Assembly (NCBI RefSeq): GCF_026239675.1 | Contig: NZ_JAPIVQ010000009.1 | Span: 186,001 to 250,000 of the forward strand | Direction of reading: 5' to 3' | DNA length: 64,000 bases | Source of the DNA: Pedobacter sp. PLR | GTDB lineage: Bacteria > Bacteroidota > Bacteroidia > Sphingobacteriales > Sphingobacteriaceae | In this document: positions 26,673 to 37,298 of the stretch, piece by piece | Layout: each line of letters opens with the position of its first letter | Numbering within the stretch: the stretch's first letter is position 1 | Position numbers and translations under genes: made by a program | Notes under the pieces: generated by a model | What the model was told of the DNA's origin: nothing | The model's database searches: none | What the model saw: the letters and a program-made list of their open reading frames with translations, nothing else

Positions 26673-27842
26673 ATGTTCTCCTCTCCAACAGTTAACCTTG
26701 ATGTTCTAAAAAAAAGGGCTTACAATTTAAGGTGGGCAACCGTTCCAGACGGTGTCATTCCTTTAACAGCAGCCGATCCGGATTTCCCCTGTGCCCCGGA
26801 AATCTCAGAAGCAATTATCCGTTTTACAAAAGACCGCTACCTGTGCTATGGTCCGCCGGAAGGCTTGCCACAGTTCAAAAAAAGCATGGCTGGTTTCTTT
26901 CAGGAAAAACGAAATATTCCGGCAGACCCTGCCCTTCTTTTTCCGGTAGACAGTGCCGCGTTTGGCATCTGGTTAACCTGTAAAGCGTTTTTAACACCAC
27001 AGGATGAAGCGATTATCTTTGATCCGGTAGACTTTCTTTTCAGGTACTCCATAGAAGCTGTAGGTGCTACTGCCATTCCTTTTTCTATCCCTCCGGGTGA
27101 TGCAGCTGTGGATTTTGACAGACTGGAAAAGCTGATCAGCAAGAACACTAAAATGATCTGCATCTGCAATCCTTTAAATCCAACAGGAAAAGTTTTCAGT
27201 AAAGAAGAGCTACTTCGTTTTGGAGAAATCGCCTGTAGACATGACCTGATCATCTTATCGGATGAGATCTGGAGCGATATCATTTATGCGCCTCATGTTT
27301 TCACCAGTATCGCCTCCCTGAATGAAGAGATTCGCGACAGAACCATCACGATTACGGGATTCAGCAAATCTTATGGACTGGCAGGTTTAAGAATCGGCAC
27401 AGTGATGGCTTCTAATTCAGCGCACTACAGCCGGTTATTTGAAGCCTCGCTACACGGTTCTACTATCAATGGCGCCAATGTATTGTCGCAACTTGCAGCA
27501 ACAGCGGCATTAGACGAATCCGCCTATTATCTTGACGCGTTCAAAACACACCTGCACCAGATGCGGGAATTAGTTGTCAAAGAACTCAACAGCGTAGATG
27601 GCTTCCACTGCATTGCACCGGAAGGCTGTTACGTGGCTTTTGTTGACATCACCGGAACTCATAAATCCAGTTCAGACGTTCGGGATTTACTCTTTAATGA
27701 GGCAAAAGTTGCCGTGGTACCAGGTTTAAAACAATGGTTTGGGGAAGGTGCTGAAGGCTATATCCGCCTCAGCTTTGCGACCTCAGAAGGAATACTCACA
27801 GATGCGCTCTCCCGTATCAGGAACACCATAAAATCACTATGA
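26673..27842 (+). CDS. MalY/PatB-like pyridoxal-phosphate aminotransferase or C-S lyase
   Basis: 389 residues of fold-type-I class I/II. Visible are A-D-P-D-F-P-C-A-P near the start, Y-G-P-P-E-G-L-P, the Asn of N-P-L-N-P-T-G-K, the Asp/Tyr of L-S-D-E-I-W-S-D-I-I-Y, the PLP lysine in T-G-F-S-K-S-Y-G-L-A-G-L-R, and the Arg of I-R-L-S-F-A that binds the substrate carboxylate. The D-E-I-W-S-D element and size favour the MalY/PatB group, which cleaves cystathionine and related C-S bonds, but an ordinary aminotransferase is possible. It follows the response regulator by 33 bp and overlaps the next gene by 4 bp. Confidence 0.88.
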   Translation: MFSSPTVNLDVLKKRAYNLRWATVPDGVIPLTAADPDFPCAPEISEAIIRFTKDRYLCYGPPEGLPQFKKSMAGFFQEKRNIPADPALLFPVDSAAFGIWLTCKAFLTPQDEAIIFDPVDFLFRYSIEAVGATAIPFSIPPGDAAVDFDRLEKLISKNTKMICICNPLNPTGKVFSKEELLRFGEIACRHDLIILSDEIWSDIIYAPHVFTSIASLNEEIRDRTITITGFSKSYGLAGLRIGTVMASNSAHYSRLFEASLHGSTINGANVLSQLAATAALDESAYYLDAFKTHLHQMRELVVKELNSVDGFHCIAPEGCYVAFVDITGTHKSSSDVRDLLFNEAKVAVVPGLKQWFGEGAEGYIRLSFATSEGILTDALSRIRNTIKSL

Positions 27843-29776
27843 AAGTTGTCATAATTGGAGGAGGCATCGCCGGACTCACCCTTGGTATATTTTTGCGAAA
27901 ACAAAATATAGAATCTGTAATCAATGAAAGGCTGGTAAACATGCCGGAAAGAGGTCACGCTTTTTTAATGCACAGCGATGGACTCAGTAAACTGAAAGAA
28001 CTTAGTCCGGACGACAATACCGCAGTTCCGGGTAAAACAGTTGATGATTTCATCTTAAAAAGACCTTCAGGAAAGGAAATCAAGCATTTACACCTTGATT
28101 CCTGGAAATGTATCAAGCGTGGCGACCTGATCCGCTTTCTAAAGCGCTCCATCCCAAAGGACCTCCTTATTGAAGGCCGTGAATTCTCACATTTCATTTA
28201 CGAAAATGACAAAGTTGTTGCTGCTGCCTTTAAGAATGGGGACCTGGAATATGGCGACATTTTTGTGGGCGCGGATGGCGGAAATTCCAAAGTAAGACAG
28301 CAGATCATTGGCGACGTTACTTTTACCCCGGTAGCGGTGAAAGAAGTTGTAGGTGTTTCTTACAATGAAAAGCTTGGAAAAACACATGGCGAAAACTTCA
28401 CAAAGTTCCAGGACAACACCAAAGGCTTAGCTTTTGGCATGATTCCAACGGATAAAAACGAATTTGTATGGTTTGTACAGTTTGATGCGAATGCCAACAA
28501 AGTTGAGGATGATAGTCCGGAGGGAATTAAGACATTTTGTACGGAACTGCTAAAAGATTTCCCGGCAGAGGTTTCTGAGCTGTTGTCAACCAATGATTTT
28601 ACCAGCAGTTACATCTGGAATACGCGTGATTTTGACCTGCTACCCACTTTTCACCACCAAAACGTGGTTTTAATCGGTGATGCAGCACATCTTTCCCTGC
28701 CATTTACCAGTGCCGGTACAACCAATGCCATTGTGGATGCCAGAACACTGGTAGACGAATTGTTGCAACATGAAAATCATGAGGATGCTTTTGAGCAATA
28801 CTATGCGACAAGAGCGCCGCAAATAGAAAAGCATATCCAGTTGGGCAGAGAATTAAAACATGTCTTCCTGAATCCTACGGATCAGAATGATGATGATATT
28901 CCGGTTCCATTGATCGCGAATAAGGAACAACTGGATGAGGTAAGTGCTAATCTGCAAATTGAGGTGTTGTACTTTACCGACCCGATTTGTTCTACCTGCT
29001 GGACTATACAACCTTTATTGAGGAAACTTAAGCTGGAATATGGCAGTTACCTGAATATTAAATACTGTATGGGCGGAATGCTTCCTTCCTGGGGAGAATA
29101 TCCTAAAGGAAAAGTGAACGGTCCGACTGAAGTGGCAAAGCATTGGGATGAGGTTTGTGCCATTCATGAAATGCCTATCGATGGTGATTTATGGATTGAA
29201 GACCCTATGAATTCTTCTTATCCGCCTTCCATTGCATTTAAAGCCGCACAGATGCAGGACAATGACCTTGCTCCCCTTTTCTTAAGACGGATCAATGAGA
29301 TGGTTTTTGTAGAAAAGAAAAATATCATCAAATGGGAGTTTCTGGAAAAAGCAGCGTTAGAAGTAGGCCTGGATTCTGCCAGACTTTTAAGGGATTATGA
29401 AGGTCGGGCAAAAGAATTGTTTAAAGAAGACCTGAATACCGGCAAAACGCATGGGGTGACTAGTTTTCCTACCTTGATCTTTTCAGACCCCTCAAATGAC
29501 CATGTGACAATTAAAGGCCACCAGACCTATGACCATTTTGTAGACATCATTTTGCAGCGTCTGCCGCATGCGAAAAAGGCGGAGATAGATACCGATCCTA
29601 AAAACCTGTTTGGTCATTTCCCGACCATGGCCGATAAGGAATTCGCTTATTTGAGTGATATTTCTATGGAAGCAGCAGCTGTGAAACTGGAGGAGCTGTA
29701 TGATCAGGGTTTCCTGAAAAAAATGGAAAGTAAAAACGGTATCCTCTGGAAAAGCAATTACTTCGAGCTGGTGTAA
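27839..29776 (+). CDS. FAD-dependent monooxygenase fused to a DsbA/SpxH-like thioredoxin domain
   Basis: 645 residues in one uninterrupted frame. Residues 1-345 are a PHBH-type flavin monooxygenase: G-G-G-I-A-G-L dinucleotide fingerprint at the start, G-A-D-G-G-N-S near 144-150, and I-G-D-A-A-H at 279-284. Residues about 373-590 are a DsbA-fold module like SpxH/YjbH, with active-site Cys384-Ser-Thr-Cys387 in F-T-D-P-I-C-S-T-C-W and downstream segments S-S-Y-P-P-S-I-A-F-K-A-A. A short winged-helix-like tail (about 610-645) ends the protein. The two halves are normally separate proteins. ATG overlaps the stop of the PLP enzyme, so a joint role in sulfur or thiol metabolism is plausible but inferred. 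Confidence 0.88.
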   Translation: MKVVIIGGGIAGLTLGIFLRKQNIESVINERLVNMPERGHAFLMHSDGLSKLKELSPDDNTAVPGKTVDDFILKRPSGKEIKHLHLDSWKCIKRGDLIRFLKRSIPKDLLIEGREFSHFIYENDKVVAAAFKNGDLEYGDIFVGADGGNSKVRQQIIGDVTFTPVAVKEVVGVSYNEKLGKTHGENFTKFQDNTKGLAFGMIPTDKNEFVWFVQFDANANKVEDDSPEGIKTFCTELLKDFPAEVSELLSTNDFTSSYIWNTRDFDLLPTFHHQNVVLIGDAAHLSLPFTSAGTTNAIVDARTLVDELLQHENHEDAFEQYYATRAPQIEKHIQLGRELKHVFLNPTDQNDDDIPVPLIANKEQLDEVSANLQIEVLYFTDPICSTCWTIQPLLRKLKLEYGSYLNIKYCMGGMLPSWGEYPKGKVNGPTEVAKHWDEVCAIHEMPIDGDLWIEDPMNSSYPPSIAFKAAQMQDNDLAPLFLRRINEMVFVEKKNIIKWEFLEKAALEVGLDSARLLRDYEGRAKELFKEDLNTGKTHGVTSFPTLIFSDPSNDHVTIKGHQTYDHFVDIILQRLPHAKKAEIDTDPKNLFGHFPTMADKEFAYLSDISMEAAAVKLEELYDQGFLKKMESKNGILWKSNYFELV

Positions 29777-31590: not shown

Positions 31591-32724
31591 ATGATTATGA
31601 AAGTTAAGTATTTAGCTTATTTCCCAATTTTAGCTGCCGTTACAATAGTCGGCTGTACCTCTTCTCAAAGTAAGGAGAACACTACAGACCAGGCCAAAAC
31701 AGTGCCTATCGCTACAGTCAGCGTATTAGACACCATCATTTTCAAAGAATACATTGCCGATATACAGGCGGTGAAAAACGTAGAAGTAAGATCCAGATTG
31801 TCAGGATTCTTAGAGAAAATCTATGTAGAAGAAGGTTCAGCGGTTAAAGCCGGACAAGTCCTCTTTAAAATCAACGACGAAGAGTACAAAGCCGACCTGA
31901 GCAAGGCTGAGGCCGTATTAAACAATGCCATCGCAGATGCGAAAACCGTAGATCTGGAACAGGAAAGAACCAGGGTATTGGTACAAAGCAATATCGTTTC
32001 CAAAACGGAACTTGATTTAGGCGCAGCAAAGCTGAAAGCCGCTGAATCCCGTGTTGCCGAAGCCAGATCTGTGTTACGCTATGCGAAATCAAGACTTTCA
32101 CACACCCTGATCAAATCGCCTTTTACCGGACGTATCGACAGGATGCCACTGAAAGCAGGTAGTTTATTGGCGGAAGGTTCCCTCCTAACCACCGTATCTG
32201 ATTTAAGCGCGGTAAACGTGTATTTTTCAATCTCGGAAAAGGAATACCTGAACATTGCCAGCGACTCCGCTTATTCTAAAAACAACTTCAAAAAACAGGT
32301 TAAACTTACGCTGGCCAATGGAACCGTCTATCCATTTGAAGGGACAGCCAGATTTGCCGAAAGTGAATTCGCGAGTCAGACAGGTTCTTTATCATTAAAA
32401 GCGAATTTCCCTAATGCAGAAGGACTGCTAAAACATGGTGCTTCCGGTAAAATCAGCGTTCCTGTGGAAACAGGAGAGATTTTAGCGGTGCACCAGAAAT
32501 CTGTATTTGAAATCCAGGACAGAACTTATGTGTATGTGTTAAATGAAAATAACACCATCAAAATGACTCCTTTCCATGCCGGACAACGTATCGGACACTA
32601 TTACATGGTCAACTCCGGATTAAAGAAATCTGATAAGATCGTTTTTGAAGGCACGCAAAGTCTACGCGACGGCCTAACCGTTAAGCCTATGGAGGCCAAA
32701 ACTAACCCTATCGCCAAAAACTAA
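31591..32724 (+). CDS. RND efflux periplasmic adaptor (membrane fusion protein), lipoprotein
   Basis: 377 residues. An SPII signal (A-V-T-I-V-G-C-T-S-S) predicts lipid anchoring to the inner membrane. The AcrA/MexA-type order is visible: beta-barrel start, half-lipoyl V-R-S-R-L-S-G-F-L-E-K-I-Y-V-E-E-G-S-A-V-K-A-G-Q-V-L-F, an alpha-hairpin about residues 105-165, second half-lipoyl L-I-K-S-P-F-T-G-R-I-D-R, then beta-barrel and membrane-proximal domains. It links the inner-membrane pump to the outer-membrane channel, both encoded by the next gene 26 bp downstream. The second Met (31597) is an equally likely start. Confidence 0.93.
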   Translation: MIMKVKYLAYFPILAAVTIVGCTSSQSKENTTDQAKTVPIATVSVLDTIIFKEYIADIQAVKNVEVRSRLSGFLEKIYVEEGSAVKAGQVLFKINDEEYKADLSKAEAVLNNAIADAKTVDLEQERTRVLVQSNIVSKTELDLGAAKLKAAESRVAEARSVLRYAKSRLSHTLIKSPFTGRIDRMPLKAGSLLAEGSLLTTVSDLSAVNVYFSISEKEYLNIASDSAYSKNNFKKQVKLTLANGTVYPFEGTARFAESEFASQTGSLSLKANFPNAEGLLKHGASGKISVPVETGEILAVHQKSVFEIQDRTYVYVLNENNTIKMTPFHAGQRIGHYYMVNSGLKKSDKIVFEGTQSLRDGLTVKPMEAKTNPIAKN

Positions 32725-32750: not shown

Positions 32751-35700
32751 ATGTTTGAACAATTTATAAAACGACCGGTATTATCACTGGTTATTTCCCT
32801 TTTTATCACCCTCCTGGGTTTACTGGCGCTATTTACCTTGCCGGTTACCCAATTCCCGGACATCGTTCCGCCATCCGTCGTGGTAACGGCAAATTATACC
32901 GGTGCAAATGCCGAAGTGAGTACAAATGCCGTGGCTATTCCTCTGGAAAGGACCATTAATGGTGTTGCAGGCATGACTTACATGAGTTCCGTATCCACCA
33001 ATAACGGAACTACCCTGATCCAGGTTTTCTTTAAAGTAGGCACAGATCCTGACATTGCAGCGGTTAACGTGCAGAACAGGGTAACCACTGTGCTCGACGA
33101 ATTACCTGAAGAAGTAATCAAAGCCGGGGTTACAACCGAAAAAGAAGTGAACAGTATGCTGATGTATCTGAACATTTATAGTGACGATAAAACAGCAGAT
33201 GAGCGTTTTATCTACAACTTTACCGATATCAATATCCTAAAAGAATTGAAACGTATTGAAGGTGTTGGTTTTGCGCAGATCATGGGCTTAAGGGATTATG
33301 CGATGCGTGTATGGCTAAAACCAGACCGCCTGGCTGCCTACAACATCTCTTCCGATGATGTCATTGCCGCTCTAAGAAGGCAAAATGTGGAAGCTGCACC
33401 CGGACAAACGGGTATCGGTTCTGACAAATCGATCAATATGCAGCAATATGTATTGCGCTATCCGGGCAAGTTTTCGGACGCTGAGGAGTATAAAAACATT
33501 CCAATCCGCGCCAATGCAGATGGTTCTATTATCCGGATCAAAGACGTTGCAGATGTAGAATTTGGTTCCTTAGATTATGAGATGGTGTCTAAAACTGATG
33601 GCAGGCCTTCAGCCTCTATCATGCTGAAACAGCTGCCCGGCTCTAACGCACAGGAAGTTATTAAAAACGTAAAAGACCGCATGGCCGCCTTACAGGGGAA
33701 CTCTTTCCCTCCGGGAATGAAATACACCATGGGCTATGATGTATCCAGATTCCTTGATGCCTCAATTTCAAGCGTATTGATCACTTTACTTGAAGCCTTT
33801 ATTCTCGTATTTATTGTGGTATTTATCTTCTTACAGGACTTCCGTTCTACCTTAATTCCGGCGCTTGCCGTACCGGTTTGTTTAATTGGCGCCTTGTTTT
33901 TTATGCAGATGCTGGGCTTCTCCATCAACTTACTGACCTTGTTTGCACTCGTGCTTGCGATAGGTATTGTGGTCGATAATGCCATTGTAGTGGTGGAGGC
34001 AGTCTACTCTAAAATGGAGGAAGAACACCTTCAACCCATGGAAGCAACCATCGCTGCGATGAAAGAAGTTGGTAAGCCGGTTGTGGCAATCACCCTGGTG
34101 ATGTCGGCCGTGTTTATTCCGGTAGCTTTCCTTTCTGGTCCCGTAGGTATTTTCTATCGCCAGTTCTCCTTAACACTGGCTTCGGCGATTATCATTTCCG
34201 GAATCAATGCCTTGACCTTAACACCGGCGCTATGTGCCATCATTCTTCGTTCTCCGCATGATAAACCTGAGGCCAAAGGCTGGATGTCCAGATTTTTTGC
34301 TGGCTTTAACAGGGTTTACAACAGAATGGCGGGCGGTTATAAAGGATTACTGACCAGAATTGCAGGAAGAAGAATTCTGACATTCGGACTGTTGATCGCT
34401 TTCTTTATCGCCACCTGGGGCATGAGCAGTATTTTGCCTTCCGGTTTTATCCCGACTGAAGATCAGGGGATGATTTACGTGAACGTAACCACGCCTCCCG
34501 GAGCTACAGTTGACAGAACCGAAAGCGTATTGAATGAAATTGATGCCATCAGCAGAAAGATGCAGGCGGTAGAAACGGTTTCTACCCTTGCCGGTTACAG
34601 TTTAGTAAACGAGGTTTCCGGTGCGTCTTACGGGATGGGCATGATCAATCTCGTGGCCTGGAAAGACAGAGAAGAATCGGTAACCGACATGATCGAAAAG
34701 CTTAAAAAGGCTACTTCACACATCATGGATGCGGATATTGAGTTCTTCCCTCCGCCTACCGTGCCTGGTTTCGGTAACTCTTCAGGTTTTGAATTGCGCC
34801 TTTTAGATAAAACCGGTGCTGACGACCTGAACCGGACTTCCGAAGTGATGAAGAAGTTTATTGAGGATCTAAAGGCCACTCCTGAAATTGGTAATGTGTT
34901 TACCACTTTCGACGTGAGCTTCCCGCAATATCTGATCAAAGTAGATCATGATCTGGCAGCGAAAAAAGGCATTAGCGTGGAGAATGCGATGAACACTTTG
35001 CAGACTTTAATGGGTAGTTATTATGCCACCAACTTCATCCGATACGGACAAATGTACAAGGTGATGGTGCAGGCAGGCCCTAATTACCGCGAAAAACCGG
35101 AAGATGTATTGAACCTTTTCATCAAGAATGATCAGGGAGAAATGATGCCATTCTCTACATTCATCAATATGGAGCGCGTTTATGGTCCGGAGCAGATCAC
35201 CCGTTACAATATGTTCTCTTCGGCGATGCTGAATGGGGATGCCACCGCAGGTTTCAGTAGCGGACAGGCGATTGATGCAGTAGAAGCCGTAGCGAAAAAG
35301 CTTCCGGCAGGTTATGAAATTGAATGGTCTGGTATGACGCGTGAGCAGATTCTTTCCGGAAATCAGGCTTTATACATCTTTGCATTATGTTTACTGTTTG
35401 TATACCTGATCCTTGCTGCCCAGTATGAAAGCTTCCTTTTACCATTGCCAGTATTGTTGTCTTTACCGGCAGGTATTTTCGGGGCCTTCCTGTTCTTATG
35501 GATGTTTGGACTGGAAAACAATATTTATGCGCAGGTCGCATTGGTTATGCTCATCGGTTTACTCGGGAAAAACGCGATTCTGATCGTAGAGTACGCTATT
35601 ATTAAACAAGAACAAGGTATGAGTTTCTTAGATGCTGCAATTGAGGGTTCTGTTGCCCGTTTGCGTCCGATCTTGATGACCTCTTTTGCTTTTGCAGCAG

Positions 35701-37298
35701 GATTGGTTCCTTTAATGCTGGCTACTGGTGCCGGTGCCCTTGGAAATCGCTCTATCGGAACAGCCGCTGTAGGCGGGATGATCATTGGTACGGTGGTCGG
35801 CGTAATCGTGATTCCAGGTCTCTATGTGCTCTTCTCATCATTGATGAAGAAGAAAGTAACTGCTAGCGCTAAGGTTATTGTAGCGATTACCTCGGTGATG
35901 TTGATCAGCAGCTGCTCCATGAAGAAAGATATTCCTGTTTATGAGCACCGTAGTCTGCCGGAAAGCTTCCAGAAAAGTACGGATACGAACACTGTAGCCA
36001 ATACTACCTGGAAGGAATTCTTTAAGGATGAGCAGTTGATTGCACTAATTGAAACTGCCCTTGCCAACAATACAGATATGAAGCAAACTTTGCATCATAT
36101 TGAGATCGCGAAGGCAAACTTAAGAATGCGAAAAGGTGCAGCTTTACCTAATATAGACCTTGCAATTGAAGGAGGACTAAGGAGATACGGTTTCTATACC
36201 GCTGATGGAATTGGTAATTACGACACCAATTTCTCTCCCAATCTGAAACCAGGTGAGCAGGTTCCCAACCCGCTTCCCGACTATTTTGTGGGGATCAGGA
36301 CTTCATGGGAACTGGATTTATGGGGAAAGCTGAAAAACAAAAAGCAGGCCGCATTGAACAAGTTCATGGCTTCCTATGAGGGACAGAAACTGGTGCAGAC
36401 AGAGTTGATCAGTAATGTATCCGCAGCCTATTTCGAATTGCTGACCCTGGATGAGGAGCTTAAGATTTTAAGCAGAAACATCCAGCTTCAACAGAATGGA
36501 TTAAAGTTGATTCAGGTGCAAAAAGAAGCGGGTGTGGCTACCGAATTAGGCGTACAGCAATTCAAAGCGGTGCTTGCCAATTCCAAAGCTAAAGAGCAGG
36601 AAGTATTACAACAGGTTAGTCTGATGCAGCACCACCTGAACTTCCTTACTGGTAGATTTGAATCTACTATTACATTAAAGGAGAATGGATTAGAAGAATT
36701 CACTTCTACCAGTACTTTAGCAGAAGGCACACCTTTACAGATGATTGCTTTGAGGCCGGACATTAGACAAGCCGGACTGGAATTGATCGCTTCGCAGAAA
36801 GAAACGAAGGCCGCAAGTGCAGCATTCTTACCTGCAATTGTGTTAGCGCCGCATATTGGCTTGCAATCTTTTGACCTGAGTAAATTGCTACAACCGCAAA
36901 CGGCATTGGCTTATGGATTGATAGGTGGCTTAACTGCTCCTATTTTCAACCAGCACCGCATACGCGCAGAATACGAGAGTTATAAAGCAAGTTACGGGAT
37001 AGCATTTCAAAATTATGAGAAGATCGTTCTGAAGGCTTACAATGAGGTTCAGGACGCGGTAAAATCTCAAGCCTTCATTAAGGCGAAAAGAGGTTACATC
37101 TCTGAGGAAGTGAAAGCGCTGAATGCTTCCGTTAAAGCAGCAAACGCCTTGTTTTTAGCTGGAAGGGTAACCTATCTGGATATCATTACCACGCAAAGGA
37201 ATGTTTTGGATGCGGAACTTAATGAGGTTCAGGCGAAGAAACAGCAGGTGCTGAACCAGATTTCTATTTACAAAGCCTTAGGTGGCGGCTGGAAATAA
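32751..37298 (+). CDS. RND multidrug efflux pump fused to TolC-family outer-membrane lipoprotein
   Basis: 1515 residues in one frame. Residues 1 to about 1030 are a complete HAE1/AcrB-type proton-driven pump, with 12 helices, G-I-V-V-D-N-A-I-V-V-V-E in helix 4 and the G-N-x-S-I-G-T end motif. Residues 1055-1515 are a NodT/OprM-type outer-membrane factor (W-K-E-F-F-K-D-E-Q-L-I-A-L-I-E-T-A-L, later W-E-L-D-L-W-G-K-L). The join, residues 1032-1055, is a complete lipoprotein signal: M-K-K-K, a hydrophobic core, then L-I-S-S-C with Cys1055. The second half could be released by signal peptidase II or made from an internal start at Met1032 (35844). Substrates are unknown; the adaptor gene is directly upstream. 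Confidence 0.92.
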   Translation: MFEQFIKRPVLSLVISLFITLLGLLALFTLPVTQFPDIVPPSVVVTANYTGANAEVSTNAVAIPLERTINGVAGMTYMSSVSTNNGTTLIQVFFKVGTDPDIAAVNVQNRVTTVLDELPEEVIKAGVTTEKEVNSMLMYLNIYSDDKTADERFIYNFTDINILKELKRIEGVGFAQIMGLRDYAMRVWLKPDRLAAYNISSDDVIAALRRQNVEAAPGQTGIGSDKSINMQQYVLRYPGKFSDAEEYKNIPIRANADGSIIRIKDVADVEFGSLDYEMVSKTDGRPSASIMLKQLPGSNAQEVIKNVKDRMAALQGNSFPPGMKYTMGYDVSRFLDASISSVLITLLEAFILVFIVVFIFLQDFRSTLIPALAVPVCLIGALFFMQMLGFSINLLTLFALVLAIGIVVDNAIVVVEAVYSKMEEEHLQPMEATIAAMKEVGKPVVAITLVMSAVFIPVAFLSGPVGIFYRQFSLTLASAIIISGINALTLTPALCAIILRSPHDKPEAKGWMSRFFAGFNRVYNRMAGGYKGLLTRIAGRRILTFGLLIAFFIATWGMSSILPSGFIPTEDQGMIYVNVTTPPGATVDRTESVLNEIDAISRKMQAVETVSTLAGYSLVNEVSGASYGMGMINLVAWKDREESVTDMIEKLKKATSHIMDADIEFFPPPTVPGFGNSSGFELRLLDKTGADDLNRTSEVMKKFIEDLKATPEIGNVFTTFDVSFPQYLIKVDHDLAAKKGISVENAMNTLQTLMGSYYATNFIRYGQMYKVMVQAGPNYREKPEDVLNLFIKNDQGEMMPFSTFINMERVYGPEQITRYNMFSSAMLNGDATAGFSSGQAIDAVEAVAKKLPAGYEIEWSGMTREQILSGNQALYIFALCLLFVYLILAAQYESFLLPLPVLLSLPAGIFGAFLFLWMFGLENNIYAQVALVMLIGLLGKNAILIVEYAIIKQEQGMSFLDAAIEGSVARLRPILMTSFAFAAGLVPLMLATGAGALGNRSIGTAAVGGMIIGTVVGVIVIPGLYVLFSSLMKKKVTASAKVIVAITSVMLISSCSMKKDIPVYEHRSLPESFQKSTDTNTVANTTWKEFFKDEQLIALIETALANNTDMKQTLHHIEIAKANLRMRKGAALPNIDLAIEGGLRRYGFYTADGIGNYDTNFSPNLKPGEQVPNPLPDYFVGIRTSWELDLWGKLKNKKQAALNKFMASYEGQKLVQTELISNVSAAYFELLTLDEELKILSRNIQLQQNGLKLIQVQKEAGVATELGVQQFKAVLANSKAKEQEVLQQVSLMQHHLNFLTGRFESTITLKENGLEEFTSTSTLAEGTPLQMIALRPDIRQAGLELIASQKETKAASAAFLPAIVLAPHIGLQSFDLSKLLQPQTALAYGLIGGLTAPIFNQHRIRAEYESYKASYGIAFQNYEKIVLKAYNEVQDAVKSQAFIKAKRGYISEEVKALNASVKAANALFLAGRVTYLDIITTQRNVLDAELNEVQAKKQQVLNQISIYKALGGGWK

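Follow-up and report, generated by a model that had tools for sequence, protein, structure and literature searches.

In the stretch of DNA analysed here (the window, 64,000 nucleotides in full), an RND/HAE1-type efflux pump and an outer membrane channel are encoded by one open reading frame, with a lipoprotein signal embedded at the join. Comparison of related sequences leads us to regard a natural pump-channel polyprotein as highly probable: the embedded signal would export the channel, Lgt and signal peptidase II (Lsp) would process the chain at Cys1055, and the two parts would be supplied one to one. Pump and channel of a tripartite efflux system are required in equal numbers and reside in two different membranes, and it is not obvious how the cell maintains this balance. 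In the present case, both parts derive from one chain, and selection has retained the signal needed for their separation.

A complete pump and a complete channel in one frame

The region 32,751–37,298 of the forward strand is a single open frame of 1515 codons without internal stops (Table 1). The first-pass annotation of this DNA had read it as a pump and a channel in one frame, and profile searches bear this out, with a complete AcrB/HAE1-type pump in residues 1–1031 and a complete OprM/NodT-type channel in residues 1055–1515. Pfam ACR_tran covers residues 1–1028 (profile positions 1–1020 of 1021) with 1028.9 bits against a cut-off of 28, and TIGR00915 covers residues 2–1039 with 1058.5 bits, above its curated cut-off of 940.35; the full-length ACR_tran match and the TIGR00915 score place the first part among RND/HAE1 pumps. 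The second part is matched over its full length by TIGR01845 (outer_NodT; residues 1051–1513, profile positions 6–460 of 460) with 242.7 bits, above the curated cut-off of 210.05, and thus belongs to the NodT/OprM channels, in line with the OprM/CusC fold of its model. The Pfam OEP match begins at residue 1099.

Relatives of the pump part with solved structures include CmeB, MexB and AcrB, and the Lys and Arg motifs of the pump are present at positions 939 and 970. We note that the TM4 motif of the pump (encoded within 32,751–35,843) is VVDNA, with Asn where AcrB carries the second proton-relay Asp; the VDNA motif is common to 30 unfused relatives. The gene for a periplasmic adaptor ends 26 nt upstream of the fusion, and each of the 20 named relatives checked likewise has a gene related to the adaptor immediately before the fusion.

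Structure prediction was performed on the last 525 residues of the 1515-residue protein (pLDDT 68). The model consists of the TM12 helix (12–43), a short turn, a 15-residue helix (50–64) that ends just before the Cys, and mostly coil up to the channel helices. The junction is modelled with low confidence (pLDDT about 40–50), and the channel part is confident enough for structural matches, of which CusC (3pik) and OprM are the best.

Table 1. Features of the fused gene and of the adaptor gene upstream of it, in window coordinates
Feature	Position	Strand	Basis
Periplasmic adaptor (MFP, HlyD/CusB type) with its own lipoprotein-like signal, IVGC	31591..32724	+	ORF; Pfam HlyD_D23, HlyD_3, Biotin_lipoyl_2
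RND/HAE1 pump part, residues 1–1031, 12 TM ending in the cytoplasm	32751..35843	+	ACR_tran, TIGR00915
Met1032 ATG, proposed internal start, not conserved across fusions	35844..35846	+	Sequence; absent in relatives
Positive stretch KKKVTASAK (1033–1041), pump cytoplasmic tail and n-region of the embedded signal	35847..35873	+	Translation; charge
Hydrophobic core VIVAITSVM (1042–1050) of the embedded signal, putative TM13	35874..35900	+	Translation; low-confidence model helix
Lipobox L-I-S-S-C, Cys1055 (TGC at 35913–35915)	35901..35915	+	Cys in 85/85; pattern fits every row
Mature NodT/OprM-type channel, residues 1055–1515, and stop	35913..37298	+	TIGR01845, OEP; model matches CusC and OprM

Distribution and origin of the fusion

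Among 99 genomes of the genus, eight other Pedobacter genomes carry the full-length fusion with 89–97% identity over all 1515 residues, and a ninth (Pedobacter quisquiliarum, G097) carries it with a longer junction. When a profile of junction and channel was employed, full-length matches free of stops were obtained in 79 of the 301 genomes drawn from the family, representing six genera, and no fused match outside the family was found among 395 genomes drawn from the phylum. The survey yielded 85 distinct copies of the fusion, from Pedobacter, Parapedobacter, Olivibacter, Sphingobacterium, Arcticibacter and one more genus of the same family; the first five of these genera were also recovered in a search among named genomes. 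Only full-length matches without stops were counted as fusions. The open-frame lengths of partial matches were not trusted, because two such cases proved to be separate ORFs: an apparent second fusion in the source genome (C34, open frame 1537) has a stop between pump and channel, and an apparent fusion in another family (G680, 1611) consists of two ORFs with several stops between them. Both candidates were rejected.

Could an assembly or sequencing artefact have deleted a stop codon, a possibility that the first-pass annotation had raised? Unfused relatives are indeed just one or two stop codons away from the fused state, some of them in the same frame, but the 85 distinct fused genes come from many independent assemblies, and the recurrence of the fusion across genomes, including the eight highly similar Pedobacter copies, excludes both chance and misassembly.

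In a tree of pump sequences, the 72 fused genes in which the pump is complete all grouped in one clade (support 0.96) that contained no unfused pump, of which 52 were included. The channel tree likewise grouped all 72 fused genes, with weak support (0.51). The placement of all fused genes in one clade thus points to a single old fusion event from which all copies arose. In the unfused sisters, the channel gene either begins within the last few bases of the pump gene or starts 9–18 nt after its stop, and some genomes have both genes in the same frame. Judging from these arrangements, the fused form would be reachable by a small change, namely loss of the stop and of part of the acidic pump tail. 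We also observed that in one group of unfused sisters (L164–L170) pump and channel lie in the same frame, separated by one stop and 9–18 nt, and that readthrough of this stop would yield a fused protein.

A lipoprotein signal is conserved at the junction

The join reads M1032-KKK-VTASAK-VIVAITSVMLISS-C1055 and contains the features of a type II signal: a charged n-region, a hydrophobic core and a lipobox with its Cys. The intact lipoprotein signal described in the first-pass annotation, with Met1032 at 35,844 and Cys1055, is therefore present in the sequence. The lipobox pattern matches the 1515-residue protein once only, at Cys1055, and is likewise a single match in 69 of 71 full-length relatives, the other two having a second occurrence. 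The signal occupies residues 1033–1055 of the 1515-residue frame and hence does not lie at the N-terminus of the precursor, where a bacterial lipoprotein carries it. In the unfused sister genes, a signal of the same type is found at the true N-terminus of the channel.

We extracted the junctions of the 85 distinct fused genes and analysed them as 86 rows, the P. quisquiliarum gene being counted in two of them. The Cys is kept in 85/85 genes (73 TGT and 12 TGC codons) and is the sole invariant column between positions -24 and +15; neighbouring columns vary over 3–15 residues. The lipobox pattern fits all rows, with Ser, Ala or Gly at position -1. The first-pass annotation had envisaged that related fusions might all lack the lipobox Cys, which is clearly not the case: the genome survey that it had suggested, for fusions with the lipobox retained, returned only genes that keep it. 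The Cys is followed by Ser, Thr, Asn, Gly, Lys or Ala and never by Asp, which in E. coli at this position is an inner-membrane retention signal, though this phylum may follow another rule. Between TM12 and the core the net charge is mostly +3 to +8, with the P. quisquiliarum gene as the sole exception, and in all fused genes but one 31–43 residues separate the Cys from the end of TM12. The P. quisquiliarum junction (L048/L078) has an acidic, glycine-rich insert of ~34 residues between TM12 and the signal, followed by a new KKK before the core.

The first-pass annotation had offered two uses for such a signal: it could serve for export, as a thirteenth segment of the chain and a target of signal peptidase II, or it could mark the beginning of a separately initiated channel. 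In the second case, ribosomes would also initiate at Met1032 (35,844), the channel would be made on its own with a normal N-terminal signal, and the fused protein would be a by-product. The source genome and most close Pedobacter relatives do have an ATG exactly where the lipoprotein signal (MKKK) would begin, and the channel gene of unfused relatives begins within or just behind the end of the pump gene. However, 64 of the 86 rows have no ATG placed so as to include the charged n-region, and 48 have neither ATG, GTG nor TTG there; such a codon is also missing between TM12 and the Cys in the close relative Pedobacter sp. B4-66 (L018/L046), and the frame is open through the junction in all fused genes. 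A start codon serving the channel should be conserved, yet it is not, and we thus reject internal initiation as a conserved mechanism and consider it unlikely overall, although 35,844 may be used in the source genome. Across the aligned fusions, it is the protein-level signal that is conserved at the junction rather than a start codon, and this speaks for processing by Lgt and signal peptidase II. The first-pass proposal of an export signal open to cleavage by signal peptidase II is well supported by comparison, through the invariant Cys, the net-positive stretch and the lack of Asp after the Cys.

Proposed processing into pump and channel

Since all 85 fusions examined keep the lipobox Cys, we consider cleavage in two by the lipoprotein signal peptidase the most likely fate of the chain. 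We propose that the ribosome would produce one chain of 1515 residues, whose pump segments TM1–TM12 would insert into the inner membrane, TM12 ending on the cytoplasmic side. Next, the translocon would take up the lysine-rich stretch together with the hydrophobic core as a thirteenth segment, leading to export of the channel part. Lgt would lipidate Cys1055, and signal peptidase II would subsequently cut before it, leaving the signal on the pump as a C-terminal TM13 unless it is trimmed later. The freed channel would be an ordinary lipoprotein, able to reach the outer membrane, form trimers and reconnect with the pump via the product of the neighbouring upstream adaptor gene. The genome encodes two copies of Lsp (G000:C12:316881 and G000:C45:88682). 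To our knowledge, cleavage by Lsp at a signal behind a 12-TM protein has no experimental precedent.

Pump and channel would be produced one to one by this route, fitting the 3:3 of assembled pumps. Assembled AcrAB-TolC contains channel, adaptor and pump in a ratio of 3:6:3 (PMC13095208), and one chain would therefore supply pump and channel in the proportion needed.

The chain might instead stay uncut, as a tethered pump-channel protein that spans both membranes. The frame is fused throughout the clade, with no re-splitting of a fused lineage in our sample, and the embedded core is hydrophobic enough to remain a TM helix; with a Kyte-Doolittle mean of 2.42, embedded cores slightly exceed the hydrophobicity of their counterparts in unfused channels (2.01), which could also suit a permanent anchor. 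The dimensions of the linker speak against such a protein. Cys1055 is separated by 32 residues from the conserved Trp that opens the equatorial part of the channel, and automatic scoring of 69 genes gave 32–38 residues for this distance, while alignment gave values up to about 42. At an estimated 0.36 nm per residue, the fully stretched linker would span no more than about 15 nm, which is probably insufficient in a periplasm whose two membranes lie about 25 nm apart (PMC5705723). If the dimensions of E. coli and Pseudomonas apply, an uncut chain held by TM13 could probably hardly leave the channel in its normal place, given that the equatorial part is located close to the outer membrane. Nor does an uncut protein account for an invariant lipobox Cys within a fast-changing stretch, and we judge it very unlikely.

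If cleavage at Cys1055 is correct, the substrates of Lgt and Lsp extend to a signal located behind a polytopic membrane protein, and efflux assembly is tied to an enzyme with a specific inhibitor (globomycin).

Comparison with known systems

MexAB-OprM and AcrAB-TolC are built from the same three parts, with full-length pump and channel domains and an adaptor gene directly upstream. OprM also has the signal of a lipidated channel, and its N-terminal Cys is palmitoylated and anchors it in the outer membrane (PMC4790312). Unlike in these systems, the Pedobacter pump and channel form one ORF, and the channel signal is internal rather than N-terminal. The product would thus be a standard tripartite pump made as a polyprotein; RND-channel fusions as such are visible to domain searches. 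In open-access papers we found no description of a natural RND-channel fusion of this kind, of its embedded type II signal or of its processing, which is weak evidence of novelty; nothing pertinent on internal type II signals turned up in the same literature either.

CusA/CzcA-type pumps fused to TolC-like channels occur in the same genome and are widespread in the family (L068, L069, L177–L206), with open frames of about 1440–1490 residues. They resemble the 1515-residue protein in having one frame (~1450 residues) that runs from pump to channel with an export signal embedded at the join, but they belong to the heavy-metal pump family, and their signals resemble signal-peptidase-I sites (AxA-Q) and not a lipobox. 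In the 17 CusA-type junctions located by motif, the ends are mostly of the signal-peptidase-I type (e.g. ATA-Q, AKA-Q and SHA-Q), and no lipobox is conserved among them. The two pump families are distinct, because the 1515-residue protein scores 388.4 bits with TIGR00914, below the cut-off of 701.45 for the CusA/CzcA class. By these sequence criteria, two distinct pump families have each been joined to a channel with an export signal left at the join.

An analogy for the general arrangement is FbcH of Bradyrhizobium, in which cytochromes b and c1 are made as one precursor, a polytopic protein followed by an internal signal, and are cut into two subunits of one complex. It differs from the Pedobacter fusion in that signal peptidase I is employed instead of signal peptidase II and both products remain in the inner membrane.

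We think it likely that signal peptidase II acts here as a polyprotein-processing protease, which would sort two parts of one machine to two membranes and fix their ratio, that the CusA-channel fusions may be cut by signal peptidase I, and that embedded export signals would then be a general route to pump-channel pairs in this group.

The window contains another fused gene (27,839–29,776, forward strand), which encodes an FAD-binding monooxygenase-like domain (residues 2–333) and a thioredoxin/DsbA-like domain with a CSTC motif (residues 378–568).
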